From assembly GCF_003387475.1 (NCBI RefSeq), contig NZ_QUNO01000011.1:310001-374000 (forward strand): a stretch of 64,000 nucleotides of DNA, written 5' to 3'. The stretch comes from Kutzneria buriramensis (GTDB lineage: Bacteria > Actinomycetota > Actinomycetes > Mycobacteriales > Pseudonocardiaceae). The position numbers were made by a program, and so were the translations under genes. The notes beneath the pieces were generated by a model. The model saw only the letters and a list, made by a program, of their open reading frames with translations. It was not told the DNA's origin and made no database searches. This document shows, piece after piece, positions 1,818 to 18,623 of this stretch (positions within the stretch are counted from its first letter, which is position 1; each line of letters begins with the position of its first letter).

Positions 1818-1943
1818 TCGCGAGGCCGCCGCCGATGCCTGGACCGCGGGCAGTTTTCGATCAAGTCTTTCCATTGATCGAAAACTGACAAGGGAAGGCA
1901 TCGGCCTCGTGGGCGGCCGAGCCGCCGCGCGGGACGCGCGGCA
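1818..1943 (+). repeat. Structured intergenic repeat, family A, copy 1 (126 bp)
   Basis: The element begins TCGCGAGGC and ends in a hairpin with arms GCCGCGCG / CGCGCGGC (1924-1931 and 1935-1942). An outer stem pairs GCCGATGCC (1831-1839) with GGCATCGGC (1897-1905). An inner 14-bp perfect stem pairs CAGTTTTCGATCAA (1851-1864) with TTGATCGAAAACTG (1874-1887). The order of motifs (TCGCGAGG, GCCGATGC, TTTCGAT, TCGAAA, CAAGGG, GCATCGGC, GGCCGAGCC, terminal CG hairpin) is shared with the copies at 14072 and 18473, while the stem sequences differ in a compensated way. It fills the gap between the PH-domain terminator and the PHP gene. Confidence 0.85.
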
Positions 1944-1953
1944 AACTAGCACG

Positions 1954-2814
1954 GTGCCCATTGACCTGCATGCCCACACTTCCCGGTCCGACGGAACGGA
2001 CTCGCCTGCGGAGTTGATGGCGGCCGCGGCCGCCGCCGGCCTCGACGTCGTGGCGATCACCGACCACGACACCACCGCCGGCTGGGACGAGGCGGCCGCG
2101 GCGGTGCCGCCGGGCGTGCGGCTGGTGCCGGGGGCGGAGCTGTCCTGCCTGTCGCCGGACGGTCTCGGCGGCACCTGCACCGTGCACCTGCTGGCCTACC
2201 TGTTCGACCCGGAGTCGCCGGCGCTCAAGACGGAGCAGAGCCGGCTGCGGGCGGAGCGCCGGCTGCGGCTGCGGCGGATGGCCGAGCGGATGGCCGCCGA
2301 CGGTTTTCCCGTCGACGCGGACGACGTCATGGGCCGGCTGCCGGCCGACTCGCCCGGCGGTCGGCCGCACCTGGCGCAGGCGCTGATCCGTGCCGGCGTC
2401 GTGAGCAGCGTGGACGAGGCGTTCGCCAAGTACCTGGGCACCGGCAGCAGCTATCACGTGCCGCGCACGGACACCCCGGTGGAGACGGCCATCAACATGA
2501 TCGCCGACGCCGGCGGCGTCACCGTGCTGGCGCACCCGTTCGCCCGCTCCCGGGGCCCGATCGTGACGGCCTCGGTGGTCGCCGACCTGGCCGATCTGGG
2601 CCTGTCCGGCGTCGAGGTGGACCACCCCGACCACGACCGGCCGACCCGGGACCGGCTGCGGGCGCTGGCCGCCGACCTGTCGCTGGTCGTCACCGGGTCG
2701 AGCGACTACCACGGCACGAACAAGGTCGTCAGGCTCGGACAGGAGACCACCGCGCCCGACATGCTGGACGCGCTGGTCGACAAGGCGAGCGGAAGCCAGG
2801 TGGTCGTCGGGTGA
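1954..2814 (+). CDS. PHP domain metal-dependent phosphoesterase
   Basis: A 286-residue protein. The GTG at 1954 is preferred because the protein then begins MPIDLHAHTSRSDGTDSP, the first PHP motif, as in relatives; the longer open frame upstream would run through the repeat element. Further PHP motifs are ITDHDTTAGW and HPFARSRGP, with a C-terminal SSDYHGTNK. PHP enzymes bind two or three metal ions through these His/Asp residues. The nearest characterised relatives are YciV/RNase AM and related 3',5'-nucleoside bisphosphate phosphatases, so RNA or nucleotide turnover is a reasonable inference. It overlaps the MarC gene by 4 bp (GTGA). Confidence 0.85.
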   Translation: MPIDLHAHTSRSDGTDSPAELMAAAAAAGLDVVAITDHDTTAGWDEAAAAVPPGVRLVPGAELSCLSPDGLGGTCTVHLLAYLFDPESPALKTEQSRLRAERRLRLRRMAERMAADGFPVDADDVMGRLPADSPGGRPHLAQALIRAGVVSSVDEAFAKYLGTGSSYHVPRTDTPVETAINMIADAGGVTVLAHPFARSRGPIVTASVVADLADLGLSGVEVDHPDHDRPTRDRLRALAADLSLVVTGSSDYHGTNKVVRLGQETTAPDMLDALVDKASGSQVVVG

Positions 2815-3428
2815 TCTTCAACGTCACGCTGTACCTCACGGCGACCATCACGCTGACCGTGATCATGGACCCCACCGGCAACATCCCGGTGTTCCTGAGC
2901 CTGGTCGGCCGGCGCAGCCGCGAGTCCCGCAACAAGGCGGCCCGGCAGGGCGTGCTGGTGTCGCTGGCGGTGATCTCGCTGTTCGCCATCGGCGGCGAGG
3001 CGATCCTGTCCTACCTCGGCATCGGCATCCCCGCGCTGCAGGGCGCGGGCGGCCTGCTGCTGTTGCTGATCGCGCTGGACCTGTTGACGGGCAAGGGACT
3101 CACCGAGCCGCAGGCCGTCGAGGACGTCAACATCGCGCTGGTGCCGCTGGGCACGCCGCTGATGGCCGGCCCCGGCGCGATCGCCGCGACCATCGTGTTC
3201 GTGCGGCAGGCCAACGGGCAGATCGCCAGCTACCTGGCGCTGGCTGCGGCGATCCTGACCGTGCACCTGATCAACTACCTGGTGCTGCGCTACTCCGGCA
3301 TCGTGATCCGGCTGATCAAGGACAGCGGCATCGTGCTCGTCGCCAAGATCGCCGGCCTGCTGCTGGCCGCCATCGCCGTGCAGCTGGTGGCCGAGTCGGT
3401 GAAGGGGTTCATCGGCGGCGCGGCGTGA
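2811..3428 (+). CDS. MarC family integral membrane protein
   Basis: A 205-residue protein with about six hydrophobic helices. It carries the family hallmarks DPTGNIPVFLSL in helix 1, the GGLLLLLIALDLL helix, and a VPLGTPLMAGPGAIA loop between helices 3 and 4. MarC proteins (UPF0056/NAAT family) are inner-membrane proteins of unknown substrate; a role in multiple antibiotic resistance was proposed and later disputed. The GTG start overlaps the end of the PHP gene, indicating translational coupling. Confidence 0.9.
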   Translation: MIFNVTLYLTATITLTVIMDPTGNIPVFLSLVGRRSRESRNKAARQGVLVSLAVISLFAIGGEAILSYLGIGIPALQGAGGLLLLLIALDLLTGKGLTEPQAVEDVNIALVPLGTPLMAGPGAIAATIVFVRQANGQIASYLALAAAILTVHLINYLVLRYSGIVIRLIKDSGIVLVAKIAGLLLAAIAVQLVAESVKGFIGGAA

Positions 3429-3432
3429 CCGC

Positions 3433-3438
3433 TACGGT
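3433..3438 (+). promoter_or_regulatory. -10 box, leaderless promoter of the RecB-like gene
   Basis: TACGGT ends 6 bases before the GTG start at 3445. This spacing places the transcription start at or next to the start codon, the pattern of leaderless actinobacterial transcripts. Confidence 0.45.
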
Positions 3439-3444
3439 GGGTCG

Positions 3445-4281
3445 GTGCCAGATCAGCTCGGACTGTTCGAGAGCATGCCGCCCAAACTGGTGCGCGTCAC
3501 GCCCGCCAAGCTCGCCACCTGGACGGACTGCCGCCGCCGCTACCGGATGAACTACCTGGACCGGCCGACACCGCCCAAGTCCGGCGCGTGGGCGCACAAC
3601 ACGCTCGGCGCGGTGGTGCACAACGCGCTGCGCGCCTTCTTCGACCTGCCGGTCGAGCGCCGCACGCCGGAGCAGGCCGCGTCGATGGTCACCCGCAACT
3701 GGAAGGGCGACGGCTTCCGCGACGTCGACCAGCAGGCCGAATACCGGGATCGGGCCCGGGACTGGGTCGCGCACTACGTCGAGGACACCGACGTCAGCGA
3801 GGACCCGATCGGCCTGGAGCGCTGGGTTTCCGCGCCGGTGGGCCGGATCATCGCCGAGGGCCGGGTCGACCGCATCGACGTGCGCGACGGCGAGCTGGTG
3901 ATCGTCGACTACAAGACCGGCCGGCACGCGCTGACCACCGACGACGCGCGCGGCTCGCAGGCCCTCGCGCTGTACGCGGTCGCGGCCCGGCGCACGCTGC
4001 GCAAGCCGTGCCACCGGGTCGAACTTCACCACCTGCCGACACGGTCGGTGGCAGCCTGGGAGCACACCGACGACACGCTCGCCCGGCACGTGGCCCGCGC
4101 CGAGGAGAGCGCCGACGAACTGACGGTGGCCGGCGACACGCTGGCCGCGGGCGGCGACGCCGACATCCTGTTCCCGCCGGAGCCGGGCCGGCAGTGCTCC
4201 TGGTGCGACTTCCGGCGCAGCTGTCCGGAGGGCTCCGCCGTCGCCGAGGACCTGGAACCATGGTCCATGTTGGCGCCGTAG
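3445..4281 (+). CDS. RecB-family PD-(D/E)XK nuclease with Fe-S cluster cysteines
   Basis: A 278-residue stand-alone nuclease. The catalytic core is visible as GRVDRIDVRDGELVIVDYKTG, in which D and the E/YK pattern are the PD-(D/E)XK residues. An N-terminal cysteine (TWTDCRRRY) and a C-terminal CSWCDFRRSC trio match the iron-staple arrangement of AddB/Cas4-type nucleases, in which one early and three late cysteines hold a 4Fe-4S cluster. A similar protein in mycobacteria (Rv2119) is annotated as a RecB-family exonuclease. The GTG start follows a -10-like box closely. DNA-end processing is inferred; no helicase domain is present. Confidence 0.85.
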   Translation: MPDQLGLFESMPPKLVRVTPAKLATWTDCRRRYRMNYLDRPTPPKSGAWAHNTLGAVVHNALRAFFDLPVERRTPEQAASMVTRNWKGDGFRDVDQQAEYRDRARDWVAHYVEDTDVSEDPIGLERWVSAPVGRIIAEGRVDRIDVRDGELVIVDYKTGRHALTTDDARGSQALALYAVAARRTLRKPCHRVELHHLPTRSVAAWEHTDDTLARHVARAEESADELTVAGDTLAAGGDADILFPPEPGRQCSWCDFRRSCPEGSAVAEDLEPWSMLAP

Positions 4282-4295
4282 TCCACGGAGGTGAC

Positions 4296-4604
4296 GTGAC
4301 CGACACGATGACCGAGCCGACGAAGAAGACGGCCGGCCGCGGCGCGCTGCGCGGCGCCAGCGGCGCGGTGGCCGCATGCCTGGTGTTGCTGCTGCTCGCC
4401 GTCCTCGCGTCGCAGATCTTCTTCCAGTTCCAGGGATATCCCGGCCTGGGCTGGCCGGCCGTCGGCGGGCACGCGCTGGCCGCGGTGATCGCCGTGCTGC
4501 TGCAACGCCTCGCCGACCGGCGCGGCGGCGCGGCCTCCGTGCTGGCCTCGCTCGCCGTCATCGTCGACGCGGCGCTGACCTTCTGGCTCTTCTGGTGGTC
4601 CTGA
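4296..4604 (+). CDS. Small integral membrane protein of unknown function
   Basis: A 102-residue protein from GTG 4296 (MTDTMTEPTKKTAGRG), preceded by a good GGAG ribosome-binding site in CACGGAGGTGAC. After a basic cytoplasmic N-terminus it has three hydrophobic segments (AACLVLLLLAVLASQIFF, GGHALAAVIAVLL, LAVIVDAALTFWLFWW). It starts 14 bp after the RecB-like nuclease and probably shares its transcript. It stops 1 bp from the stop of the convergent hydrolase gene, with no terminator hairpin between them. I do not recognise a named domain. Confidence 0.65.
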   Translation: MTDTMTEPTKKTAGRGALRGASGAVAACLVLLLLAVLASQIFFQFQGYPGLGWPAVGGHALAAVIAVLLQRLADRRGGAASVLASLAVIVDAALTFWLFWWS

Positions 4605-4605
4605 C

Positions 4606-5499
4606 CTAACGGGCGTCGGCCAGCCAGGCCCGCCAGGTTGGCAGGACCGTGCCGAGCAGGCCGTCCGGGTTCTCCGTGTTGGGGGAGTGCTTGGCCCCGG
4701 TGACCACCGCGAAGTCGGCGTCGAGCCGGTCGGCCATGTCCCGCTGCGAGGCCACCGACCACGCGTCGTCCTGCTCGCCGCAGATCACCAGCGCCGACGC
4801 GCCCGCGGTGCGCAGGGCGGCGGCCAGCTTGGTCACCAGGTCCGGTTCGTAGCGCAGGCCGTCGGCCATGCCGAGCAGGCCCGCCTGCGTGGAGCGCAGG
4901 AACCGCTTGCGCTTGAACTCCTTCAGCTCGACCGGCACGTCCGCCCAGCCCGGGTCCTCCGCGGCGCGGGACTCCAGCACCTGGTGCGCGGCCTCCACGC
5001 CGTGCTCACGCAGGATCACCTCGCCCGTGTCCAGGGCGCTGCGGCGGTCACCCGGCGGCAGCTCGGCCGGCCCGGAGTCCATCAGCGTCAGGCCGGTGAC
5101 GGGGGCGTGCGCCAGCACGGCGGCGCGCACCACCAGGCCGCCGTAGGAGTGCCCGAGCAGCAGCACCCGCCGGCCGTCGGCGACGATCTTGGCGACGAGA
5201 TCGGCCAGCACCGTGCCCAGCGGCGCCGGCCGGTACGAGGACTCCTGCTCCGGCCCCGGCGACTCGTACTGGCCGGGCATGTCGATCGCCAGCACCTCCA
5301 TGCCGGCGTCCGAGATCGGATCGACCAGCGGCGCGAAGTCCTCCTTGGAGCCGGTGTAGCCGGGCACCAGCAGCGCCGTCGCGCCCAGGTCCGCGCCGGC
5401 GGCGGGCGCCCGCAGCGCGGCGATCGGCCCGTACCGTCCGGGCAGGTCCACCCGGGCGGCGCGGTTGGCGGTCAGCTGAGACGGTGGCGCGGCGCTCAT
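4606..5499 (-). CDS. Alpha/beta hydrolase
   Basis: A 297-residue single-domain alpha/beta hydrolase. The oxyanion-side motif is LLVPGYTGSKEDF, the nucleophile elbow is GHSYGG, and the histidine lies in GAKHSPNTENPDG near the C-terminus. The acid is probably in ICGEQDDAWS. The ATG at 5499 gives MSAAPPSQLTANRAARVDLP. The family covers esterases, lipases and thioesterases and the substrate is not readable. It follows the propeller gene by 44 bp on the same strand. Confidence 0.85.
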   Translation of the reverse strand: MSAAPPSQLTANRAARVDLPGRYGPIAALRAPAAGADLGATALLVPGYTGSKEDFAPLVDPISDAGMEVLAIDMPGQYESPGPEQESSYRPAPLGTVLADLVAKIVADGRRVLLLGHSYGGLVVRAAVLAHAPVTGLTLMDSGPAELPPGDRRSALDTGEVILREHGVEAAHQVLESRAAEDPGWADVPVELKEFKRKRFLRSTQAGLLGMADGLRYEPDLVTKLAAALRTAGASALVICGEQDDAWSVASQRDMADRLDADFAVVTGAKHSPNTENPDGLLGTVLPTWRAWLADAR

Positions 5500-5543
5500 G
5501 GCTGGGAGTCTGCCGCACCGTGCACGCAGCGTGTAGTACCGGA

Positions 5544-6923
5544 TCAGCGCATGGCGACGAGAGTGTCGCCACGCTGCTCCACCAGCACGTTGCCGAGCGT
5601 GGTCAGCCGCACCTGCCCCTGGTAGCCCTTGCGGTCCACCTTCACGTCCGTGCCGCGCACCCCGGTCACCGGATCCATTGAGGCCAGTCCACCCGGGACG
5701 GGCACGAGGATCTTGTCCGCGTACACCGTGCCGGCGCCGAAGGCGTCCATCGTCCACAGTGGCTCGAGGGTGGACCCGGACAGCGCCACCGTCTTGGCGC
5801 CGGTGAACCAGGTGATCACCCGCGCGCCGCCGGTGTTGGTGGTGGTCCAGCTGTTCGGCTCGCACTTGCCGGACTGATCGGGCGTCTGGATGCAGGTCAT
5901 CGCCACCGTCGACTGCACCTGCGAGTCGGGCGTGGCCGTCAGGTCGACGTTGTCGAGCGGCACGGTCTCGATCTGCGAACCGGTGTTGTTCCAGATCACC
6001 AGCCGGGCCGGATTGGGCAGCGCGATCGCCTCACGCTGGTCGGTCAGCGCCACGATCCGGCCGCCGTCGCCCGGCACCTGCACGCTGAACAGCACGTTCG
6101 GCCGCTCCGCGTCGTTGTCGGTGCCGCCCGGCCGCAGCAGGGTGAACCGGTTGTACTGCTCGTCCGGGCAGCGCTCGATCACGCCCAGCAGGCCGGGGCC
6201 GGCCAGCTCCGAGCTGTACACGCAGTTCAGCCGCGGCTGCTTGTCGTGGTTCACGATCGCCGTAACGGTGCCGTACTGCTGGGTCTGCACCAGGTCGGAC
6301 CGCCACGTGTCGACCAGCTTGGTGCCGCTGCTGGAGACGTAGGTGCCGTCGTACATGAGCTGGGTGTTCAGCTCGGCGTCGCCGTTGCGCTGCGCGCCGC
6401 GCTTGCCGGTCACGCCGTCCAGCTCGGTGACCTCGCTGCAGTTGTGCGTCTTGTGGTAGACGGCGAGCGCCTTGCCCCAGGCGGCGATGACCGTGCACAG
6501 GTCGAGGTTGCTGCGGTCGTAGCTCCACCGCGCCGCCCCGGTGACCGGGTCACGCCCGGTCACGGTGTGCTGGTCGCCCGTCACGACGGACGGGCCGACC
6601 GCCACGGGGTCCTTCGTGGCGCCGCTGGCCGCCCGCCACAGCTCCTTGAACTCCGGCGGCACCGACGTCGGCTTCGGCGGCACGGTCACGTCGCCCGAGC
6701 CGGTCACCGACGCCGTCGCGGCGGCGTCGCTGGTCTTCCACCACAGCGTGCCGCCGGCGGCGACGACCAGCACGATCAGCACGACCACGGCGTAGTCGCG
6801 CTTGCGTCGGAACCGCGTGCGCGGACCCGGGGGCGCCGGCGGCGGGACGTGCTCGGCGGACTCGTCGAGCACGTCCTCCTCGACCTCGGCGGCCACGGGT
6901 GCGCTCTGCTCGGGGCTCTCCAC
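5544..6923 (-). CDS. Membrane-anchored beta-propeller (PQQ-like) protein, Rv3212-type
   Basis: A 459-residue protein. It has an acidic and proline-rich cytoplasmic N-terminus (~1-40), one transmembrane helix (YAVVVLIVLVVAAGGTLWW, ~43-62) and a long extracytoplasmic region with strands of the type VTGRDPVTGAARWSYDR, LASMDPVTGVRG and GDTLVAMR, typical of PQQ-like propeller blades. Several cysteines (DLC, HNC, LNC, ERC, MTC, GKC) suggest disulphides outside the cell. It starts 5 bp after rhlE, the same pairing as Rv3211-Rv3212 in M. tuberculosis, where the partner is also of unknown function. Confidence 0.75.
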   Translation of the reverse strand: MESPEQSAPVAAEVEEDVLDESAEHVPPPAPPGPRTRFRRKRDYAVVVLIVLVVAAGGTLWWKTSDAAATASVTGSGDVTVPPKPTSVPPEFKELWRAASGATKDPVAVGPSVVTGDQHTVTGRDPVTGAARWSYDRSNLDLCTVIAAWGKALAVYHKTHNCSEVTELDGVTGKRGAQRNGDAELNTQLMYDGTYVSSSGTKLVDTWRSDLVQTQQYGTVTAIVNHDKQPRLNCVYSSELAGPGLLGVIERCPDEQYNRFTLLRPGGTDNDAERPNVLFSVQVPGDGGRIVALTDQREAIALPNPARLVIWNNTGSQIETVPLDNVDLTATPDSQVQSTVAMTCIQTPDQSGKCEPNSWTTTNTGGARVITWFTGAKTVALSGSTLEPLWTMDAFGAGTVYADKILVPVPGGLASMDPVTGVRGTDVKVDRKGYQGQVRLTTLGNVLVEQRGDTLVAMR

Positions 6924-6928
6924 GGGCC

Positions 6929-8641
<1,713 letters not shown>

Positions 8642-8887
8642 CGGCCTGGCTGGGCCGCTCGACCACGGCCGGGACGTTGTGTCTCGCCCGGCGGGCCGCG
8701 GGAGGGCCGACGAGGTTGTCGTGCGCGCACCCTGTCCGCATGGCGGCGATGGGGCCGCCGTGCTCGGTCAGCCCGGTGATGAGGTGGGACTCGTGGGGGT
8801 CGTCCCCAGGTCGCGCCGCCGCCATTACCAGGCGTCAGGGCCGGAGTCTACCTGCCCGGACGTGGTTTTGGCGCGCCCCGCGGCGGC

Positions 8888-8893
8888 TAGGCT
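8888..8893 (+). promoter_or_regulatory. -10 box, leaderless promoter of the ferritin-like gene
   Basis: TAGGCT lies 8 bases upstream of ATG 8902 with no ribosome-binding site between, as expected for a leaderless transcript. The rest of the 8642-8901 gap holds the 5' region of rhlE and nothing else I can name. Confidence 0.5.
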
Positions 8894-8901
8894 CTGCGCA
8901 C

Positions 8902-9558
8902 ATGAGCGAGGCGGACGAGGTTCTGGCTGAGGGCGTCGCGGATCTGTTGGGGGTGTTGGCATACGGCGAGCTGTCGGCGTTCGACCGGCTCGCCGAGGAC
9001 GCCCGCAGCGCGCCGACGCTGGCGGGGCGGGCGGCGCTGTCCAGCATGGCGGCCGCCGAGATCGGCCACTACCAGCTGCTGGAGCGGTACCTGGGGGAGC
9101 ACGGCGTGGCCGTGGCGGACGCGATGGCGCCGTTCGCGGGCGCGTTCGACGCGTTCAACGCCTCCACCGCGCCGCGGTCGTGGCACGAATCACTGGTGAA
9201 GGCCTACGTCGGCGACGGGCTGGCCGCCGACTTCTACCGGGAGGTCGCCGGCTGGCTGGACGAGCCGACCCAGAAGCTGGTGCTGGAGGTGCTGGCCGAC
9301 ACCGGGCACTCGGCGTTCGCCGAGCGCGAGGTCAAGGCCGCCTGCGAGGACGACCGCAAGGTCCGCGACCGGCTCACGCTGTGGGGCCGGCGGCTGCTGG
9401 GCGAGGCGTTGACGCAGGCCCAGCACGTGGTGGCCGAGCGGGACGGGCTGGCCGAGCTGATCATCCGCGGCTCCGGCGACCTGGCCGGCATCGGCGCCCT
9501 GTTCCGCCGCCTCCAGCAGTCCCACACCAAACGCATGTCCGCCCTAGGCCTCGGCTGA
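8902..9558 (+). CDS. Ferritin-like / MiaE-like di-iron fold protein (Rv3210c-type)
   Basis: A 218-residue, almost wholly helical protein. Acidic and histidine residues are spaced as in a four-helix di-iron bundle: [48 protein letters not shown] and [12 protein letters not shown]. Proteins of this type in mycobacteria are annotated as ferritin-like or tRNA-(ms2io6A)-hydroxylase-like. The exact reaction is not known. It occupies the same place beside rhlE and DUF3107 as Rv3210c. A 116-bp palindromic element begins 3 bases after its stop. Confidence 0.75.
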
Positions 9559-9560
9559 AT

Positions 9561-9676: not shown

Positions 9677-9769
9677 GTGTTCGCCGATGGCGGATGGGTC
9701 GGTGGCATGGGGGGACGGTTCGTTCTACTAGCCTGGTCGGCGAGAGCATGTTCGGATCCGGAGGTCAGC

Positions 9770-9991: not shown

Positions 9992-10005
9992 GACGCCAGC
10001 CGCGA

Positions 10006-10039: not shown

Positions 10040-10065
10040 CGCAGTGTCCGGAACAGTCCGAACCG

Positions 10066-11113: not shown

Positions 11114-11131
11114 GTGACCCACGCTACCAGA

Positions 11132-11152
11132 GTTACCGTTACTTCCGGTAAC
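11132..11152. promoter_or_regulatory. Candidate TetR operator
   Basis: GTTACCG (11132-11138) and CGGTAAC (11146-11152) form a perfect 7-bp inverted repeat around a 7-base spacer. It lies between the divergent TetR and AurF starts, where autoregulating TetR proteins usually bind. Confidence 0.6.
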
Positions 11153-11182
11153 ACTAATCCGACTGGACCGAGCGGAGGAGCG

Positions 11183-12082
11183 ATGGCTCGATCGTTGAAG
11201 GTCGCCGACCGGGAGAAGACCGCCGAACGGCTGCTCAACTCCTCGGCCGACCGGTTCTACGACCCCGAGGTGGACATCGACTGGGCGGCGCCGCTGGCCG
11301 AGGACAAGTACTACATCCCGCAACACCGCAGTTCGCTGTACGGCACGGCGCTGTGGGACGGCCTGACCGAGCAGCAGCGCATCGAACTGACCAAGCACGA
11401 GGTGGCCAGCGTGGCCTCCGTCGGCCTGTGGTTCGAGGTGCTGCTGATGCAGATGTTGGTCAAGGCTGTCTACAACGCCGATCCCACCACGAGGCACGCA
11501 CAGTACGCCCTCACCGAGGTCGCTGACGAGTGCCGGCACTCGACGATGTTCGCGCGCATGGTGGAACGCATCGGCTGCCCCGCCTACGGGCCGCGCCGGT
11601 ACGTGCACCGACTGGGTAAGCTGCTGCCGACCATCGGCTACGGCCCGGCGATGTACGGCTCGATCCTCATCGCCGAGGAGGTCCTGGACCGCATGCAGCG
11701 CGAGGCGATGCAGGACGAGTCGGTGCAGCCGCTGGTCCGCATGGTCAACCGCATCCACGTCCTCGAGGAGGCCCGGCACGTCCGGTTCGCCCGCGAGGAG
11801 GTCGTGCGCGGCATGGAGAACATGGGCCGCGCCGAGCTGATGTACCAGCGCGAGCTGATCGCGTTGGTGGGCTTCTTCATCTGCCGCAGCATCATCAACC
11901 CGCGCGTGTACGCCGCCGTCGGGATCGACCCGAAGGTCGGCGAGCAGGCGGCGCTGCACAACCCGCACTACCGCGACACCATCCACTGGGCCGGTGAGCG
12001 GATCGTGAGCTTCCTCGACGAGGTGGGTCTCGTCGGCAACCCGGGGATGTCGTTGTGGCGCAAGTCCTTCCTCGTTCGGTGA
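11183..12082 (+). CDS. AurF-type di-iron oxygenase, copy 1
   Basis: A 299-residue protein with a GGAGGAG ribosome-binding site and ATG 11183. It shows the AurF di-iron pattern: a ferritin-like bundle with ELTKHEVASVASVG, ALTEVADECRHSTMFARM and HVLEEARHVRFAREEV, supplying the Glu and His metal ligands. AurF itself is a p-aminobenzoate N-oxygenase. Many actinobacterial homologues are annotated as di-iron oxygenases without known substrate. It shares long identical stretches with the second copy at 12957. GTGA overlap with the hydrolase gene indicates translational coupling. Confidence 0.88.
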   Translation: MARSLKVADREKTAERLLNSSADRFYDPEVDIDWAAPLAEDKYYIPQHRSSLYGTALWDGLTEQQRIELTKHEVASVASVGLWFEVLLMQMLVKAVYNADPTTRHAQYALTEVADECRHSTMFARMVERIGCPAYGPRRYVHRLGKLLPTIGYGPAMYGSILIAEEVLDRMQREAMQDESVQPLVRMVNRIHVLEEARHVRFAREEVVRGMENMGRAELMYQRELIALVGFFICRSIINPRVYAAVGIDPKVGEQAALHNPHYRDTIHWAGERIVSFLDEVGLVGNPGMSLWRKSFLVR

Positions 12083-12960
12083 CGCCCTGGGACGTGGCCG
12101 CGCGCAGCCGGTTCGTCACCTCCGACGGCACCGCTCTGCACGTGGTCGACGAGGGGCCGGCCGACGCGCAGACGACGGTGGTGCTGGTGCACGCCTGGAC
12201 CCTGGACCACACCTCGTGGGACCGCGTGGCGGCGACGCTGTCGCGGACGGTCCGGGTGCTTCGGTTCGATCACCGCGGACATGGCGGCTCGTCGCCCGCG
12301 CCCCGCGGCACGGCGACGATCGCCCAGCTCGCGGACGATCTCGCCGAGCTGATCGCGGACCGGGTGCCGACCGGCCGGATCGTGCTGGCCGGCCACTCCA
12401 TCGGCGGCATGACGATGATGGCGCTGGCGGAGCGAAACCCCGACCTGGTGGCGTCTCGCGTGACGGGGGCCGCTTTCGTGGCGACCTCCTCCGGTGGCCT
12501 GGACGCGTTGTCGCTCGGACTGCCGGAGCCGGTCGCGCGGGTGGTCCGTCGCGGCGAACGCGTCGTCAACCTGCGGCTGGCGAAGATGGAGCACCGCGCG
12601 CTGCTGCACAAGCCGCGGCTCGCGGAACCCGGCCTGCGCTGGCTGCTGTTCGGTCGCCGGCCGCGCCGACAGGACGTTGCTGCCACGGCCGAGCAGGTCG
12701 CCCGCGTGCATCCGGCGTCCATGGCGGGCTTCCGGTTCTCCCTGAGCGAGCACGACCGTCGGGCCGCGCTGGCCGTGTACGGCGGGATTCCGACCGTCGT
12801 GCTCGCCGGCGGCGCCGACCGGCTCACCCCGCCCGGGCACTCCCGGGTGATCGCCGCCGAGCTGCCGGCCGCCGAGCTGGTGATCTATCCCGGGGCCGGG
12901 CACATGCTGCCGCTCGAACGCTCGTTGGAAGTGACCACCAGGATCGGAGGACTGGCATGA
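12079..12960 (+). CDS. Alpha/beta hydrolase between the AurF paralogues
   Basis: A 293-residue hydrolase. GTG 12079 is chosen because it forms a GTGA overlap with the preceding stop. Motifs are VLVHAWTLDHTSWDR, FDHRGHGGSS, the nucleophile elbow GHSIGG, and a C-terminal GAGHMLPLE with the catalytic histidine. Its acid is likely in LAGGADRLTPP. It overlaps the next AurF gene by 4 bp (ATGA), so the three genes form one tightly coupled unit and probably act on one substrate. Confidence 0.85.
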   Translation: MTPWDVAARSRFVTSDGTALHVVDEGPADAQTTVVLVHAWTLDHTSWDRVAATLSRTVRVLRFDHRGHGGSSPAPRGTATIAQLADDLAELIADRVPTGRIVLAGHSIGGMTMMALAERNPDLVASRVTGAAFVATSSGGLDALSLGLPEPVARVVRRGERVVNLRLAKMEHRALLHKPRLAEPGLRWLLFGRRPRRQDVAATAEQVARVHPASMAGFRFSLSEHDRRAALAVYGGIPTVVLAGGADRLTPPGHSRVIAAELPAAELVIYPGAGHMLPLERSLEVTTRIGGLA

Positions 12961-13838
12961 TCGCCGACCGCGAGCGGACCGCCGAGCGGCTGCTCAACTC
13001 CTCGGCCCGCAACTCCTACGACCCCGACGTCGACATCGACTGGGAGGCGCCGCTGGCGCCGGACAAGTACTTCCTGCCGGCGCACCGGTGCACGCTGTAC
13101 GGGACGCCGCTGTGGGAAGGGCTCACGCAGGAGCAGCGGATCGAGCTGACCAAGCACGAGCTGGCCAGCATCGCGTCGGTCGGGATCTGGTTCGAGGTGA
13201 TCCTGATGGAGCTGCTGGTCCGGCACTCCTACAACGCCGATCCGCTCACCCGGCACACCCAGTACGCGCTCACCGAGGTCGCCGACGAGTGCCGGCACTC
13301 GGTGATGTTCGCGCGGCTGATCGAGCGGGTCGGCTGCCCCGCGTACGGGCCCGGCCAGACCGCCCAGCGGCTCGGCCGGTTGTTCAAGTCGATCGCCTTC
13401 GGACCGTCCATGTACGCGGGGATCCTGGTCGCCGAGGAGATCACCGACGCGTTGCAGCGGGAGTCGATGAACGACGACACCGTGCAACCGCTGGTGCGGA
13501 TGGTGAACCGGATCCACGTCATCGAGGAGGCCCGGCACGTGCGGTACGCGCGGGAGGAGGTGCTGCGGGACACGCCCAAGCTGTCACGGGCCGGCCTCGC
13601 CTACCACCGCGCCATGCTCGCCCGGACCGCGTTCATCGTCACCCGGGCGCTGGTGCACCCCAAGGTGTACCGGTCGGTCGGGCTCGACCCGTACGAGGCG
13701 CGGCGGGTGGCGTGGGCGAATCCGCACCACCGGGACACCATCCGCTGGGCCGGCTCGAAGCTGGTGTCCTTCCTCGACGAGAACGACCTCATCGGCGGCC
13801 CCAGCCGCCGCGTGTGGCAGGCGGTCGGACTGGTCTGA
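12957..13838 (+). CDS. AurF-type di-iron oxygenase, copy 2
   Basis: A 293-residue paralogue of the 11183 gene. The blocks RTAERLLNSSA, IELTKHELASIASVG, YALTEVADECRHSVMFAR, VQPLVRMVNRIHV and EEARHVRYAREEV are nearly identical between the two, so all di-iron ligands are retained in both. Differences cluster in the C-terminal third. A hairpin terminator lies about 100 bp downstream. Two oxygenase copies around a hydrolase suggests either a heteromer or two substrate specificities; neither can be decided here. Confidence 0.88.
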   Translation: MIADRERTAERLLNSSARNSYDPDVDIDWEAPLAPDKYFLPAHRCTLYGTPLWEGLTQEQRIELTKHELASIASVGIWFEVILMELLVRHSYNADPLTRHTQYALTEVADECRHSVMFARLIERVGCPAYGPGQTAQRLGRLFKSIAFGPSMYAGILVAEEITDALQRESMNDDTVQPLVRMVNRIHVIEEARHVRYAREEVLRDTPKLSRAGLAYHRAMLARTAFIVTRALVHPKVYRSVGLDPYEARRVAWANPHHRDTIRWAGSKLVSFLDENDLIGGPSRRVWQAVGLV

Positions 13839-13853
13839 CCTGCCGATTCCCCG

Positions 13854-13880
13854 CTGTCCACAGGCCCCGACTTGTCCACA
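13854..13880 (+). other. Pair of DnaA-box-like sequences
   Basis: CTGTCCACA (13854-13862) and TTGTCCACA (13872-13880) lie 18 bp apart in the same orientation. TTGTCCACA matches the high-GC actinobacterial DnaA box. Two boxes alone do not make an origin. The rest of the 13839-14225 gap holds a terminator and a family A repeat. Confidence 0.3.
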
Positions 13881-13937
13881 GGCGGCCCCGTTCCAAGATC
13901 GCCCGGACGCCCCCGGCGATAGGATGGAGCGGGGCCG

Positions 13938-13969
13938 GCCCCCAGGGATGGGTGGGGGCTGCTTTGTTG
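13938..13969 (+). terminator. Terminator of the AurF cassette
   Basis: GCCCCC (13938-13943) pairs with GGGGGC (13954-13959) across a 10-base loop and is followed by TGCTTTGTT. It ends the AurF-hydrolase-AurF transcript. Confidence 0.55.
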
Positions 13970-14071
13970 CCGGGCCGCGCGAATCCATTGGTCAGAGGCG
14001 TCGTCAGGTGCCGTTGGTCCCGCAGGCGACCGATGCGAGGCCTCCGCGGTGTGCATCCGGCAGCCCGACAT

Positions 14072-14220
14072 TCGCGAGGCCCCGCCGATGCTTCGCACGG
14101 TTGCTGGATTTCGATCGCCGCCACACACGCACCCACCACGGAGCCGATGCGGCGTTCGAAATCCAGCAAGGGCGAGGCATCGGCTCCAAAGGGGCCGAGC
14201 CCCGCGCGGAACGCGCGGCA
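14072..14220 (+). repeat. Structured intergenic repeat, family A, copy 2 (149 bp)
   Basis: The outer stem is GCCGATGCTTCGC (14084-14096) with GCGAGGCATCGGC (14172-14184). The inner stem is a perfect 14-bp TTGCTGGATTTCGA (14101-14114) with TCGAAATCCAGCAA (14156-14169), extended by CGCCGC / GCGGCG. The end hairpin is CCGCGCG-GAA-CGCGCGG (14202-14218). Relative to copy 3, CTGG/CCAG replaces CCGG/CCGG and CCGCGCG/CGCGCGG replaces CCGCCCG/CGGGCGG; both are compensated changes. The element ends 3 bases from the stop codon of the minus-strand TetR gene. Confidence 0.9.
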
Positions 14221-14225
14221 ATGAC

Positions 14226-14852
14226 TCAGTGCTGCAGGGGGAAGCCGCCGCCGATGCCGCGCCAGGCCAGGGTGGAGATCATCGCCACCGCGTCCTCCTT
14301 GGACACCCGGCGGTCGGTGTCCAGCCAGAACCGGGCCGTGACCTGGCTCAACCCGGTCAGGCCGACGGCCAGCAGCCGCGCCCGGTCCCGGTCCAGCGCC
14401 GCGTCGGCCATGATCGTCTCGGTGATGGCGTCGACGCTGGCGGAGGTGGCCCGCTCGATGGCCTGCTGCACGGCCGGCTCGCCGCGCAGGTCGGACTCGA
14501 ACACCATCCGGTACGCCTGGCCCTCGTTGTCGACGAAGTCGTAGAAGGCGCCGACGGCGGCCATCACGCGCTGCTTGTTGTCGGTGGTGGACTCCATGGC
14601 CTCGCGCACCGCGGCGACCAGCGCGTCGACGTGGCTCTCGAGCAGCGCCAGGTAGAGCTCCAGCTTGCCGGGGAAGTGCTGGTACAGCACGGGCTTGCTG
14701 ACGCCCGCCCGCTCGGCGATCTCGTCCATGGCGGCGGCGTGGTAACCGTTTGCCACGAACACGTCCTGCGCGGCGGCCAGCAGCTGGGCGCGTCGTGCCG
14801 ACCTGGGCAGCCGCACGCCACGCCCGATGCCCTGTTGTGCCGTCTCCGTCAT
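14226..14852 (-). CDS. TetR family transcriptional regulator, Rv3208-type
   Basis: A 208-residue regulator. ATG 14852 (MTETAQQGIGRGVRLP) is preferred over an upstream GTG because a GGGAGG ribosome-binding site precedes it. The HTH is at ~23-65: QLLAAAQDVFVANGYHAAAM, then ERAGVSKPVLYQHFPGKLELYL. The ligand domain includes VGAFYDFVDNEGQAYRMVFE. The sequence and the neighbourhood (DUF3107, DUF3152, moeZ) match M. tuberculosis Rv3208. It is divergent from an alpha/beta hydrolase gene, which it may control. Confidence 0.85.
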   Translation of the reverse strand: MTETAQQGIGRGVRLPRSARRAQLLAAAQDVFVANGYHAAAMDEIAERAGVSKPVLYQHFPGKLELYLALLESHVDALVAAVREAMESTTDNKQRVMAAVGAFYDFVDNEGQAYRMVFESDLRGEPAVQQAIERATSASVDAITETIMADAALDRDRARLLAVGLTGLSQVTARFWLDTDRRVSKEDAVAMISTLAWRGIGGGFPLQH

Positions 14853-14904
14853 CTCGCCTCCCACAAGCGTCACTCCGTGGCCGTGGCGACGGGGTCAACA
14901 AACC

Positions 14905-14918
14905 TTACTCGCCGGTAG
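14905..14918. promoter_or_regulatory. Candidate operator of the Rv3208-type TetR
   Basis: TTACTCGCCGGTAG is a near-palindrome (TTAC...GTAG). It resembles the TTAC-N6-GTAA sites seen for actinobacterial TetR regulators of lipid metabolism. It lies in the divergent gap between the TetR gene and the hydrolase gene. Confidence 0.4.
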
Positions 14919-15005
14919 TGCCGTGTGGTGACTTCCCTGCGTCCAGACATGTACAGAAGGTGTCCGGACTTCGCTATTGAGGTGAACAACAGGCATCCTG
15001 GTGGC

Positions 15006-16028
15006 ATGACGACCGTATCCTCGGCCGCGCCGCTCGGGGCCGGCATCCCGCTGACTCTGCCGACGCGCCCGCGGACGCAGTCGCTGACGAACGTGCCGCT
15101 GTCCACCGCGACGCTGCCCGCGCTCGATCTGACGATCCCGCCCTGGCCCGGCGAGATGATGACGTCCGGCGGCCTGACGCTGCACGTCCGCCGCGCGCCC
15201 GGCCCGGGCCCGGCCGCCCCGACCGCGGTCTTCGTGCACGGCCTCGGCGGCTCGTCCACGAACTGGACCGACCTCATGGGCCAGCTGGCCTCCCGGGTCA
15301 ACTGCATCGCCCTCGACCTGCCGGGATTCGGCCGCACGGCGCCGCCGGACGGCTACGACTTCAGCATGACCACCCACACCGACACGGTGGTCCGCTTCCT
15401 CGCCGGCCTGGACGGCCCGGTGCACCTGTTCGGCAACTCCATGGGCGGCGCGATCGCCCTGGCCGTCGCGGCCCAGCGGCCGGACCTGGTGCGCTCGATG
15501 ACGCTGATCTCCCCGGCCGTCCCGGATCTGCGGCCGGACCCCCGGCGCTGCGCCAACCCGAAGCTGCCGCTGACGTACCTGCCGGTGATCGGCCGGCGGT
15601 TCCGCAGCCGGCTGACGCCCCGCGAGCAGTCCCTCCAGATCCTCCGGCTGTGCTTCGCCCAGCCGGGCCTGATCCCCGAGCACCGCATCGACGAGGGCGT
15701 GCGCGAGACGATCGAGCGCAACGGCCTGCCGTACTACCGGGGCGCGCTCGCCGCCACCACGATCGGGTTGATTCGATCTTGGTTGGTGCCGGCCAACAGG
15801 TCGCTCTGGCGGGTGGTGCCCAAGGTCACCGCGCCGTCCCTGGTGGTGTGGGGCAACCAGGACCGCCTGGTCAGCGTGCGCAAGGCGCCGAGGACCGCTC
15901 AGCTGCTGCAACGCGGCCGGCTGCTGGTGCTGCCGAGGGTCGGACACTGCGCCCAGATCGAGCGCCCGGTCACGGTCGCCCGGGCCGTGCTGGGCATGTG
16001 GGAATCGGTCGACCGCGACCGGTGGTGA
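15006..16028 (+). CDS. Alpha/beta hydrolase
   Basis: A 340-residue hydrolase from ATG 15006. After a ~55-residue N-terminal extension (LDLTIPPWPGEMMTSGGLTL) come FVHGLGGSSTNWTDL, LDLPGFGRTAPP, the nucleophile elbow GNSMGG and the final LPRVGHCAQIERP with the catalytic histidine. The acid is probably in WGNQDRLVSV. The GNSMGG elbow is shared with meta-cleavage product hydrolases and haloperoxidase-like enzymes; substrate unknown. It is divergent from the TetR gene, suggesting control by that regulator. Confidence 0.82.
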   Translation: MTTVSSAAPLGAGIPLTLPTRPRTQSLTNVPLSTATLPALDLTIPPWPGEMMTSGGLTLHVRRAPGPGPAAPTAVFVHGLGGSSTNWTDLMGQLASRVNCIALDLPGFGRTAPPDGYDFSMTTHTDTVVRFLAGLDGPVHLFGNSMGGAIALAVAAQRPDLVRSMTLISPAVPDLRPDPRRCANPKLPLTYLPVIGRRFRSRLTPREQSLQILRLCFAQPGLIPEHRIDEGVRETIERNGLPYYRGALAATTIGLIRSWLVPANRSLWRVVPKVTAPSLVVWGNQDRLVSVRKAPRTAQLLQRGRLLVLPRVGHCAQIERPVTVARAVLGMWESVDRDRW

Positions 16029-16074
16029 GGCCCGCCTGCGCGGCGGTCCGTCACAACTGTGGCACTCTGGGCCG

Positions 16075-17196
16075 GTGACTCGGACGACACAGGAAGGCCG
16101 TGGCGGTGAGGGCAGCCCCGCCAAGCCCACGCCCAGCAACGTGTCGCCGATCCGTCCTGCCGTCACCCGCCGTCCCCCGGAGGAGCGCTACAGCAGCGGC
16201 GGCCGCCGAACGGCGGCGCAGCCGCTGACGGCGTCCTGGCGGCCCGAGCGCGGCGAGGGCAAGGCCGAGCCCGGTCGCGGCAAGCCCCGCAAGGGCGTGA
16301 AGGGCTTCGCCGCCACGTACGGCTGGCGGGTGTACGCGCTGCCGGTGCTGGTCGTCGTGACGGCGCTGGTGGTGTTCAACGTGGCCCGCTCGCCGGCGCC
16401 CGGCCCGGGCGGCAGCGGCCTGGACGGCTTCGCCGGCCAGAGTCCCACGACGACCACCAGCGGCCCACCGGTGGCCACCGAGAACAAGGCCGTGCCGGTC
16501 GACCCCAAGAACGGCACCGCCGTGCTGCCGCAGGGGGACAACTTCCCGCAGGCCGGCACCGGGACCTGGCACCTCGTGCCGGGCAGCGGCGCCAAGGTCG
16601 GCAACGGCCCGCACCTGTACCGCTACCAGGTGGCCGTCGAGGACGGCATCGATCCGACGGTCTACGGCGGCGACGACGCGTACGCGAAGACCGTGGAGAA
16701 CATCCTGTCCGATCCGCGCAGCTGGATCGGCAGCGGCTCGATCTCGCTCCAGCGGGTGGGCCCGGACTTCAAGAACCCCGACTTCATCGTCAGCCTCACC
16801 ACGCCCAACACCGACCACCGGCCGGACATGTGCGGCTACCAGATCCAGTACGAGGCGTCGTGCTGGAACGCCGACCAGAACCGCGTGGTGATCAACCTGG
16901 CCCGATGGATCCGCGGCGCGATGGCCTTCAACGGCGACATCGGCCTGTACCGCGAGTACGCCATCAACCACGAGGTCGGCCACGTGTTCGGCAACCCGCA
17001 CGTGGGCTGTGGCACCGACGGCGGGCTGGCGCCGGTGATGATGCAGCAGACCTTCGGTGTGTCCGACGACTACGTGTGGCAGCTCAACCAGGTCGACCCG
17101 TTCAACCGGACCGCGGTGCAGAAGGACGGCAAGGTGTGCCGGCCCAACGCCTGGCCGAACCCGCAGGGCGCGCCCGGCGGGCAGCCCACGCAGTAG
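16075..17196 (+). CDS. DUF3152 family membrane-anchored putative metzincin protease (Rv3207c-type)
   Basis: A 373-residue protein. A long basic/proline-rich cytoplasmic N-terminus (~1-80) precedes one transmembrane helix (VYALPVLVVVTALVVFNV, ~86-103), a Thr/Pro linker and the extracytoplasmic DUF3152 domain. Residues 299-309 read HEVGHVFGNPH, an exact HExxHxxGxxH metzincin zinc motif, and PVMMQQT a little downstream would fit a Met-turn. Cysteines at MCGY, SCWN, VGCG and KVCR suggest disulphides. The family is annotated only as DUF3152; protease activity is inferred from the motif. Confidence 0.8.
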   Translation: MTRTTQEGRGGEGSPAKPTPSNVSPIRPAVTRRPPEERYSSGGRRTAAQPLTASWRPERGEGKAEPGRGKPRKGVKGFAATYGWRVYALPVLVVVTALVVFNVARSPAPGPGGSGLDGFAGQSPTTTTSGPPVATENKAVPVDPKNGTAVLPQGDNFPQAGTGTWHLVPGSGAKVGNGPHLYRYQVAVEDGIDPTVYGGDDAYAKTVENILSDPRSWIGSGSISLQRVGPDFKNPDFIVSLTTPNTDHRPDMCGYQIQYEASCWNADQNRVVINLARWIRGAMAFNGDIGLYREYAINHEVGHVFGNPHVGCGTDGGLAPVMMQQTFGVSDDYVWQLNQVDPFNRTAVQKDGKVCRPNAWPNPQGAPGGQPTQ

Positions 17197-17299
17197 TCCG
17201 CCCATAGGGTGGGACGGGTTTCCCAGCGGGAAGACACTGGGGCAGTCTGGACGTTGCAGAGGGGGCAGGATGAATTCCCCCTGCGTCGAGGAGGAGCAG

Positions 17300-18472
17300 A
17301 TGCCGCTTCCGCCGCTCGTTGAGCCAGCCGCGGAGCTGACCAAACAAGAGGTCGAGCGCTACAGCCGCCACCTGATCATCCCGGACGTCGGGGTGGACGG
17401 GCAGAAGCGGCTGAAGAACGCCAGGGTGCTGGTGGTCGGCGCCGGCGGCCTCGGCAGCCCGGCCCTGCTGTACCTGGCCGCGGCCGGGGTCGGCACGCTC
17501 GGCATCGTGGAGTTCGACGTCGTCGACGAGTCCAACCTGCAGCGCCAGGTCATCCACGGACAGTCCGACGTCGGGCGGCCCAAGGCCGAGTCGGCCCGCG
17601 ACGCCATCGCCGAGATCAACCCGTTCGTCAAGGTGAACCTGCACCAGCTGCGCCTGGACTCGGAGAACGCGCTGGACGTGTTCCGGGACTACGACCTGAT
17701 CCTGGACGGCACCGACAACTTCGCCACCCGGTACCTGGTCAACGACGCCGCCGTGCTGCTGGGCAAGCCCTACGTGTGGGGCTCGATCTTCCGGTTCGAG
17801 GGCCAGGCCAGCGTGTTCTGGGACGACGCGCCCAACGGCCAGGGCCTGAACTACCGCGACCTCTACCCGGAGCCGCCGCCTCCCGGCATGGTCCCCTCCT
17901 GCGCGGAGGGCGGCGTGCTGGGCGTGCTGTGCGCGTCCATCGGCTCGATCATGGTGACCGAGGCGATCAAGCTGATCACCGGCATCGGTGAGACGCTGCT
18001 CGGCCGCCTGATGGTGTACGACGCGCTGGAGATGACGTACCGGACGATCAAGATCCGCAAGGATCCGGAGGCCAAGCCGATCACCGAGCTGATCGACTAC
18101 GAGGCGTTCTGCGGTGTCGTGTCCGACGACGCCCGGTCCGCCGCCGCCGGCCACACCATCACGCCGCTCGAGCTCAAGCAGAAGATCGACGCGGGTGACG
18201 ACTTCCTGCTGGTCGACGTGCGGGAGCCGCACGAGTACGAGATCGTCAAGATCCCGGGCTCGGTGCTGATCCCCAAGGACCGGATCCTGTCCGGCGAGGC
18301 GTTCGCCGAGCTGCCGCAGGACAAGCCGCTGGTGCTGCACTGCAAGTCCGGCGCCCGGTCCGCGGAGGCGTTGGCCGCGCTGCACCAGGCCGGCTTCAAG
18401 GACGCCGTGCACGTCGGTGGCGGCGTGCTGGCCTGGGCCCGCGAGGTCGACCCCAGCCTGCCGACGTATTGA
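17300..18472 (+). CDS. moeZ: Adenylyltransferase/sulfurtransferase MoeZ (MoeB + rhodanese)
   Basis: A 390-residue two-domain protein. The ThiF/MoeB domain (~1-270) has the ATP-binding VVGAGGLGSPALLYLA, a DVVDESNLQRQ segment and Cys201 in VPSCAEGGVLG. The rhodanese domain (~285-390) has the active-site loop CKSGARS with Cys348. MoeZ adenylates and thiolates the C-terminal Gly of sulfur carriers such as MoaD2 and CysO, feeding molybdopterin and cysteine synthesis. ATG 17300 is chosen because GAGGAG precedes it; ATG 17270 is an alternative. A family A repeat begins at the base after the stop. Confidence 0.93.
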   Translation: MPLPPLVEPAAELTKQEVERYSRHLIIPDVGVDGQKRLKNARVLVVGAGGLGSPALLYLAAAGVGTLGIVEFDVVDESNLQRQVIHGQSDVGRPKAESARDAIAEINPFVKVNLHQLRLDSENALDVFRDYDLILDGTDNFATRYLVNDAAVLLGKPYVWGSIFRFEGQASVFWDDAPNGQGLNYRDLYPEPPPPGMVPSCAEGGVLGVLCASIGSIMVTEAIKLITGIGETLLGRLMVYDALEMTYRTIKIRKDPEAKPITELIDYEAFCGVVSDDARSAAAGHTITPLELKQKIDAGDDFLLVDVREPHEYEIVKIPGSVLIPKDRILSGEAFAELPQDKPLVLHCKSGARSAEALAALHQAGFKDAVHVGGGVLAWAREVDPSLPTY

Positions 18473-18623
18473 TGCCGCCCGTTCCGGGCGGGGCTCGGCC
18501 CCTTCGGGGCCGATGCCTCGCCCTTGCCGGATTTCGACCGCCGCATCGGCTCCCTGGTGGGGCGCGTCGGGTGGCGGCGATCGAAATCCGGCGTGCGGGC
18601 GAAGCATCGGCGGGGCCTCGCGA
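18473..18623 (-). repeat. Structured intergenic repeat, family A, copy 3 (151 bp)
   Basis: This copy is in opposite orientation to copies 1 and 2. Its CG hairpin (CCGCCCG-TTC-CGGGCGG on the + strand) starts 2 bases after the moeZ stop codon. The outer stem is GCCGATGCCTCGC (18509-18521) with GCGAAGCATCGGC (18599-18611). The inner stem is GCCGGATTTCGA (18526-18537) with TCGAAATCCGGC (18581-18592). A GGCCCC-TTC-GGGGCC hairpin lies between the CG hairpin and the outer stem. Read on the minus strand it matches copy 2 over nearly its whole length. Confidence 0.9.

Follow-up and report, generated by a model that had tools for sequence, protein, structure and literature searches.

Three copies of a palindromic repeat lie in the 64-kb window analysed here (the whole 64,000-nucleotide stretch from the Kutzneria buriramensis genome, G000). 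Each was found where the original prediction had placed it, with the right ends corrected by a few bases (1818-1949, 14072-14224 and 18623-18469), and the ordered motifs and the stem changes matched on both sides that it had described are present in the copies. Copy 1 (1818-1949, + strand), of the short or ‘S' subfamily, comprises a long hairpin, a terminal hairpin supported by both sequence and fold (1924-1942, +; 8-bp stem and GGA triloop) and the tail AAACTAG, with the bases immediately after it, CACGG, resembling the target motif described below; it scores 76.8 bits with R1, a covariance model built from nine copies of the long or ‘L' subfamily from the same genome. Copy 2 (14072-14224, +; L) is the top R1 match in the genome at 178.2 bits, being itself one of the nine model-building sequences, and has the terminal hairpin CCGCGCG-GAA-CGCGCGG (14202-14218, +). 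Its right end is adjoined by CTCAG (14225-14229, +), in which TCA, on the opposite strand, gives the TGA stop of a convergent open reading frame (14226-14873, -); since the TCAG at this site is also found in the genome G004, where the element is absent, it is read as target. Copy 3 (18469-18623, -; L; 159.0 bits) carries the terminal hairpin CCGCCCG-GAA-CGGGCGG (18475-18491, -), and the stop codon TGA (18470-18472, +) of the open reading frame at 17057-18472 (+) stands against its right end. Each of the three folds far better than its 200 dinucleotide shuffles (z of -5.4, -9.0 and -9.1 for copies 1, 2 and 3, respectively).

The element is about 120-165 bp long. From its 5' side, the structured strand starts with a near-perfect palindrome of 30-46 bp, passes directly into a GC-rich hairpin whose triloop is GNA, and finishes with a tail of approximately 6 nt (CAAARA-like; tail statistics come from a separate script that located hairpins in 105 of 109 copies, 87 of which were kept), so that the terminal hairpin and the tail sit outside the palindrome. 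In the folds, a bulge of 5-6 nt occupies the 3' side of the palindrome, 7-15 bp from its base. Of 109 own-genome copies, 19 lack a clean triloop stem; the triloop is GNA in 81 of the other 90 and in 29 of 30 elsewhere, against a chance expectation of about 5% per loop if copies are assumed independent. GNA loops make DNA hairpins unusually stable and nuclease-resistant, according to the available part of the source (PMC4686876). The closing pair is G-C in 64 of the 90, compared with C-G in the classic DNA mini-hairpin. Outside the home genome the whole plan (3'-side bulge, GC hairpin with GNA triloop, A-rich tail) recurs in 29 of 30 folds, and a GGA/GGA internal loop motif in 5 of 30. The two mutually exclusive folds that had been proposed do not hold for the family: of 93 aligned copies, only 24 could form the alternative pairing of GGGGCC with an adjacent GCCCC (at least 5 bp), and a two-state fold is thus not a family property.

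Covariation, also claimed at the outset, is borne out by shuffled and slid controls. Compensatory change is observed at 30 of 48 pairs among 91 distinct sequences, as high a value being reached in 0 of 500 shuffles; 95.6% of cells are paired, and both-side changes occupy 308 cells versus 90 in shuffles, although the copies are related by descent and the cells are accordingly not independent events. Across three genera, 94.5% of cells are paired and both-side changes number 199, versus 52 in controls. Paired changes are present in every helix, and near-perfect arms are kept while the sequence turns over totally between genera. One conserved pair is U-G in 67 cases and C-G in 24, with no other types. 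Wobble pairs on the + strand are G-U in 145 cells and A-C in 26 (by pair, G-U predominates at 21 and A-C at 7, p=0.0125), an asymmetry that would also fit a folded RNA or a mutation rate that differs between strands.

Copies extend well beyond the window. R1 gives 143 matches at E<=10, of which 35 hit an already counted place on its opposite strand; once these are set aside, at least 108 distinct places remain in the genome (103 at E<=1.0e-5). A terminal-hairpin pattern gives 64 matches, against 0 for the reversed-pattern control, including places beyond the R1 list; ten young S copies add further places to those 108. Many copies are present in four of six congeners, and outside the genus Kutzneria there are elements of unrelated sequence with the same structural plan. 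Copy counts are lower bounds, because only 150, 19 or 8 candidates were scored per genome in the wide searches. Within the reach of these searches, two genera (g16 and g21) include both carriers and non-carriers. Of 32 fetched contig stretches, those examined were all except the non-Kutzneria records L229, L232, L239, L248 and L254. One candidate, L267 (G399), was judged a false match. No plasmid matched the Kutzneria copy used as query, and a copy of the G109 type had one weak plasmid match, to a Nocardia farcinica record and over 25% of the query; phages gave no match to the G109-type copy, the sole query, and viral contigs gave 0 matches to one pattern of one S subgroup.

No described RNA family accounts for the repeat: none of 4227 Rfam models matched the window above its gathering threshold, copy 2 retrieving only microRNA models (E 0.22-0.96) far under their gathering scores. 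A linked RAYT-type transposase, suggested as a check by the original prediction, was not found in this genome; the Y1/RAYT domain PF01797 gave 0 matches in G000, G001, G003, G004, G005, G006 and G056 and one each in G002 and G109 (two of nine genomes searched). Scans for an ORF-bearing parent reached 190 nt and then 300-4000 nt upstream of each hairpin, in loci whose sampling is biased to copies. No clear ORF-sized version emerged among the 132 terminal hairpins of the Kutzneria loci. In the wider scan 13 of them were flagged; eleven look by eye like ordinary elements in which the mismatch limit had hidden the near arm, the others being L183 and L253. As in classical MITEs, the element is short, multi-copy and non-autonomous, with empty and filled sites; terminal inverted repeats with target duplication, likewise a MITE hallmark, were not found (young insertions, n=10).

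Site comparisons between species show that the repeat is polymorphic. Two syntenic regions hold 15 own copies, and for 14 of these the terminal hairpin is missing from the site in one or more of the four congeners compared. The 60 site comparisons, sorted roughly and automatically by allele, comprise 37 with no terminal hairpin, 11 in the same orientation, 4 inverted, 6 with both, 1 masked and 1 unplaced. Empty, inverted and truncated alleles are all seen, with inverted alleles of copy 1 in G002 and of copy 3 in G005. Copy 3 occupies a spot that holds 74-108 nt of other sequence in congeners; G001, G002, G004 and G006 have a different hairpin there, and G005 has such a hairpin together with an opposite-orientation copy. 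Some filled sites are messy, several junctions differing by 3-12 nt from the empty allele. Judged from these site comparisons, the element has moved after the related species diverged.

The point of insertion can be read from the ten young S copies, which lie at one position inside another palindrome. Their left flank is GAGTCRCGC in seven of ten, GAGTCCCGC in L320 and a changed form in L318 and L321; the right flank is CACAGACACAC in six of ten and otherwise a variant. Since the uninterrupted host arms read GAGTCGCGC-T-CACAGACACACC (L066, and the opposite arm of L317), at most one base was lost and none duplicated, and target-site duplication was seen neither at the ten young insertions nor at the cleaner filled/empty sites. 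The opposite host arm lies within 250 nt in only three of the ten, and some young copies may therefore be duplicates of one composite unit. A CNCNG-like site (CTCAG, CACAG) adjoins the right end of the element. Copies lie mostly just behind genes: in 35 of 63 cases no more than 10 nt separate the right end from a convergent stop codon, and only 14 of 109 copies fall between two gene starts.

Together, these observations make it somewhat probable that the repeat is a dispersed non-autonomous mobile element, moved in trans by a putative enzyme that reads folded structure and not sequence. Speaking against it are the lack of Y1 transposases in G000, the messy filled sites, the small number of young copies that keep the opposite host arm nearby, and the prevalence of G-C closing pairs in the triloop stems. 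The original prediction had named two options, a mobile element recognised by structure and a functional RNA. The first is well supported by the copies inside another repeat and by alleles that are polymorphic or inverted; the second is possible. We infer that folded single-stranded DNA would be the form in which the element is cut and joined, its 3' end and orientation being marked by the bulge and the GNA mini-hairpin, and that the element would insert beside a CNCNG-like site, which then flanks its right end, with no visible target-site duplication. Because insertions would survive at gene 3' ends, copies would build up against stop codons, TCAG being an NNC-TGA gene end on the other strand; resident copies would then place hairpins in 3' UTRs, with a possible effect on transcripts.

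The structure might instead be kept for RNA work at mRNA 3' ends, as terminator, RNase barrier or stability element, its mobility being incidental. This is possible, if rather doubtful: the wobble asymmetry may indicate that the + strand is the folded one, copies are placed at gene 3' ends, several element-free congener sites have by eye another strong hairpin, and in Yersinia, ERIC at gene 3' ends is described as changing mRNA stability in the available parts of two sources (PMC10969869, PMC2229807). However, where the neighbouring gene is convergent, the element runs antisense to that gene's 3' end, and both orientations occur at one site, so that no single strand serves the neighbour. Furthermore, the hairpin census (separate from the tail script, and misfiling some copies) found no T-run after the terminal hairpin, and a bulge and GNA loop kept in families of unrelated sequence exceed the needs of a terminator.

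Template-switching repair of quasi-palindromes could likewise produce symmetrical arms and compensatory changes without selection, and would account for near-perfect arms through total sequence turnover and for paired changes in every helix; it is nevertheless unlikely, in that the 5-6-nt bulge, the GGA/GGA loop and the U-G pair persist where repair should erase them. The structured strand, the missing duplication and the insertion beside hairpins and stop codons resemble the behaviour of two further families and would suit an element that is guided by RNA or of retro type: either a folded RNA travelling with a recombinase of the IS110 kind, or a SINE-like sequence that a group IIC intron carries along. 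This is a decidedly improbable reading, however, no target-pairing loop or intron-like part having been recognised in the element. High-copy extragenic palindromes at gene 3' ends would point to a REP/BIME family of the usual kind, with a RAYT transposase as its mover, but this is highly improbable given the sparse occurrence of Y1 transposase noted above, a unit length well above the 20-40 bp stated for REPs in the accessible text (PMC3733652), and the absence by eye of a GTAG or CGTC tag beside the terminal hairpin in the listed tails.

Tentatively, the element may belong to a system of mobile elements spanning the actinobacterial class, set by shape alone (palindrome with 3' bulge, GNA mini-hairpin and tail) and spread via folded single-stranded DNA, in which sequence would turn over fully between genera while a putative enzyme polices shape, and different families would independently strike identical gene ends, as just after purH. 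If the mobile-element reading is right, these copies form a library that can be counted and is still evolving (about 100 or more in one genome, and several species), with a single process that reads structure deciding on every member. Natural variation could then reveal the rules that a shape-specific mobile element follows, and part of the rapid hairpin turnover behind genes in Kutzneria would be explained; an enzyme common to carriers would then be the search target for a candidate recombinase.

Miniature elements derived from IS200/IS605 insert without duplication, adjoin a short fixed motif and have a hairpin near the end, and Helitron/IS91 elements have a hairpin near the 3' end. The Kutzneria element shares with the IS200/IS605 miniatures its duplication-free insertion by a short fixed motif and its hairpin near the end, but differs from them in pairing a long palindrome with a small hairpin in place of two separate end hairpins, and in that the partner enzyme (Y1) was not found in the Kutzneria genome. 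REP sequences of the GTAG and CGTC families are also extragenic palindromes located chiefly downstream of genes and measure 20-40 bp (PMC3733652), whereas the present element spans 120-165 bp. They have a tagged foot, and the GTAG class is RAYT-linked. ERIC (IRU/RU-1, 127 bp) is similarly palindromic, intergenic, found at gene 3' ends and known for effects on mRNA stability (PMC2229807, PMC10969869, each in part), but has terminal inverted repeats, TA termini and target duplication (PMC2229807); in the Kutzneria element a terminal hairpin and tail extend beyond the palindrome, and no duplication was seen. The YPAL/RU-2 element of Yersinia (168 bp), from an unrelated host, duplicates 3-26 bp of target, where no duplication is seen in Kutzneria, and is set apart by description, the available portion of the source mentioning neither a GNA terminal hairpin nor a conserved 3' bulge (PMC2229807). 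By the same partial account, YPAL/RU-2 is nonetheless comparable in being palindromic and non-autonomous, of similar length and with internal inverted repeats, and in targeting positions in or beside dyad symmetry, with both empty and filled sites known (PMC2229807).

The three copies of the structured repeat in the original prediction lie where they had been placed, at 1818..1949 (copy 1, + strand), 14072..14224 (copy 2, + strand) and 18469..18623 (copy 3, − strand), can be aligned end to end, and belong to a family that is a real, shape-conserved mobile repeat. The element (about 120-165 bp) consists of a long palindromic hairpin with a 3'-side bulge, a terminal GNA hairpin and a short tail, and its fold is far stronger than that of shuffled sequence (z of -5.4, -9.0 and -9.1 for copies 1-3, respectively). 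An initial pattern search of the home genome found nine exact starts, and none with the reversed pattern. A covariance model built from nine home-genome copies (R1) returned 143 matches at E<=10, of which 35 were discarded as opposite-strand re-matches of palindromes already counted, leaving at least 108 distinct places (103 of these at E<=1.0e-5), a lower bound because scoring covered 150 of the 10,230 first-look candidates. The family thus extends well beyond the three copies, and the working set comprised 109, one place being contributed by a pattern search. Two subfamilies are recognized, L (about 155 nt, including copies 2 and 3) and S (about 130 nt, including copy 1). No described RNA family was matched: no Rfam model reached its gathering score anywhere in the 64 kb window, and copy 2 drew just microRNA models, with scores far under theirs.

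The predicted stems do change in step. In the Kutzneria alignment (93 matches, 91 distinct), which was fitted to the model and in which kinship among copies inflates covariation counts, standard pairs make up 95.6% of 4334 cells, against 30-45% in slid controls, and both sides have changed in 30 of 48 pairs (308 cells, versus 13 pairs and 90 cells in shuffles), a value reached by none of 500 shuffles. A second, likewise fitted alignment of 29 sequences from both subfamilies and three genera is 94.5% paired, with 199 double-changed cells against 52 in the control. The two mutually exclusive folds that had also been proposed did not hold generally, the alternative hairpin (at least 5 bp) being possible in just 24 of 93 copies. 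Because G-U pairs outnumber A-C mismatches on the + strand (145 versus 26; 57 versus 25 after removal of the two most G-U-rich pairs; by pair, 21 favour G-U, 7 favour A-C and 20 show no difference, p 0.0125), it is probably this strand that forms the structure, either in RNA or in single-stranded DNA. The terminal hairpin bears on this choice: GNA occupies 81 of 90 clean triloops in the home genome (19 of the 109 copies are without a clean triloop stem), and GNA loops are known to form nuclease-resistant DNA mini-hairpins of high stability (PMC4686876), so that we lean towards single-stranded DNA, a preference weakened by the closing pair, which in 64 of the 90 Kutzneria copies is G-C rather than C-G. 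At four loci (L004:1671 and the right flanks of copies in L036, L086 and L102) the terminal hairpin and tail occur twice in tandem, which suggests that this module can duplicate by itself. In two further loci (L099 and L322), the S-type apical loop contains a partial copy of the terminal hairpin.

Among 150 genomes, R1 matched eight, including the home genome, with at least 19 matches in each of four congeners (G001, G002, G005 and G006), one in G004, none in G003, and the remainder in two other genera. Of 397 genomes from the order, a wider model (R2) matched 15, again including the home genome (6 of 86 genera, in two families). Of 394 genomes from the class it matched 4; two of these belong to another family outside the order and carry a single match each. 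In the other genera the sequence differs and the fold is the same. Among 30 folds taken from beyond the home genome (G004 supplied one and other genera the remainder, with several copies per genome), 29 show a 5-6-nt 3'-side bulge after 7-15 bp, followed by a hairpin with a GNA triloop (GAA, GCA or GGA). A stricter automatic shape test was passed by 22; in seven of the eight failures the measured gap before the terminal hairpin was wider. One locus failing the shape test, L267, was rejected as a false hit. In three genomes outside Kutzneria (G109, G318 and G353), some 40 nt to the left of the palindrome (ACGCAACC...GCGAGGCCCTGA) are alike between copies, and the left end of this group may therefore reach further out. 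A single weak match hints that the first of these genomes, G109, is close to Nocardia.

Mobility is illustrated by comparison of sites between species. At copy 3, a different hairpin replaces the element in G001, G002, G004 and G006, and G005 carries such a hairpin together with an opposite-orientation copy. For copy 2, the alleles range from a full copy in G001, through one lacking the inner stem in G006 and the base and terminal hairpin only in G002, to none in G004. The copy 1 site in G002 bears the element in opposite orientation, its right end adjoining the stop codon upstream. Two more syntenic regions were compared (15 home-genome copies against four congeners, 60 alleles). A rough automatic sorting, which mislabels truncated alleles such as those at L040, found no terminal hairpin at all in 37; of the others, 11 share the orientation of the home copy, 4 are inverted and 6 have both orientations, while 1 is masked and 1 unplaced. 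For 14 of the 15 copies at least one congener lacks the terminal hairpin at the site. Several empty alleles, among these and the sites listed for 36 congener copies put through this comparison, differ from the filled allele by 3-12 nt. Strong hairpins of other kinds occupy the same gene-end positions in congeners (L163-L172 at copy 3, and further syntenic sites). They often conform to an AAGGG/CCTTTCC...GGAAAGG/CCCTT type, whose copies differ by paired changes. It is as if hairpins behind genes were swapped for one another.

The ends are defined by ten near-alike S copies sitting within an arm of another palindromic repeat, whose uninterrupted form is GAGTCGCGC-T-CACAGACACACC (L066; opposite arm of L317). 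They are preceded by GAGTCRCGC in seven cases, by GAGTCCCGC in L320 and by a changed form in L318 and L321, and followed by CACAGACACAC in six, with variants in L313, L315, L317 and L320. Insertion cost at most one base (the T) and duplicated none. L320 fits the other arm type, found uninterrupted (CCCGCTCAGCGTCACACC) at another site in G005, and at least two of the events therefore seem independent. Just three of the ten retain the opposite host arm within 250 nt, so part of them may have spread as a composite. The host palindrome of these young copies (CCCCGCGAGTCGCGCTC...GAGCGCGACTCGCGGGG) is about 110 nt long with two arm types (L066:1068, L079:3046, L317 and congener-comparison sites). 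These junctions place the right end about 6 nt past the terminal hairpin; the C.C.G beyond it (position 11 is G in 77% of 87 tails) would then be target, consistent with TCAG being present in empty alleles (G004 at copy 2; G005, G002 and G006 at other sites).

By a simple codon-based gene caller (6 rows flagged for possible overlapping genes), the 109 copies lie between convergent genes in 36 cases, co-oriented genes in 58 and two gene starts in 14, with no right gene called in 1. A convergent stop codon falls within 10 nt of the right end in 35 of 63 cases, and a co-oriented stop within 10 nt of the left end in 17 of 68, both counts being of element copies alone. This gene-end bias would putatively reflect purifying selection and a target resembling the complement of NNC-TGA. 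The same gene end is occupied, at the stop codon, by elements of unrelated sequence in Kutzneria (L034) and G109 (L131); translated backwards from the stop, the two proteins share 74% identity across 330 residues, and that of L034 scores above the cut-off of the PurH model NF002049, identifying the shared gene as purH.

A search of the home genome for Y1 transposases came back empty. A partner survey covered 299 Kutzneria loci, a copy-biased sample of about 2.05 Mb including overlaps. The terminal hairpin accompanies a long hairpin in 83 cases and a short hairpin in 18, and 9 were solitary or spurious. When a partner arm was sought 300-4000 nt upstream, 13 of 132 hairpins were flagged; 11 of these look like ordinary elements, leaving two candidates (L183 and L253). 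Two home-genome contigs, C18 and C25, start equally far from a terminal hairpin (position 189 in both), a hint that the assembly breaks off within longer repeats holding the element.

A literature search by title and start of abstract, mostly outside subscription papers, found no description of the family, and the word ‘Actinobacteria’ occurs in neither PMC3733652 nor PMC10969869. The family is apparently undescribed and anatomically distinct, within a known kind, the bacterial repeats that are small and non-autonomous. Of the described kinds, YPAL/RU-2 comes closest, and its target duplications (PMC2229807) set it apart from the Kutzneria element.
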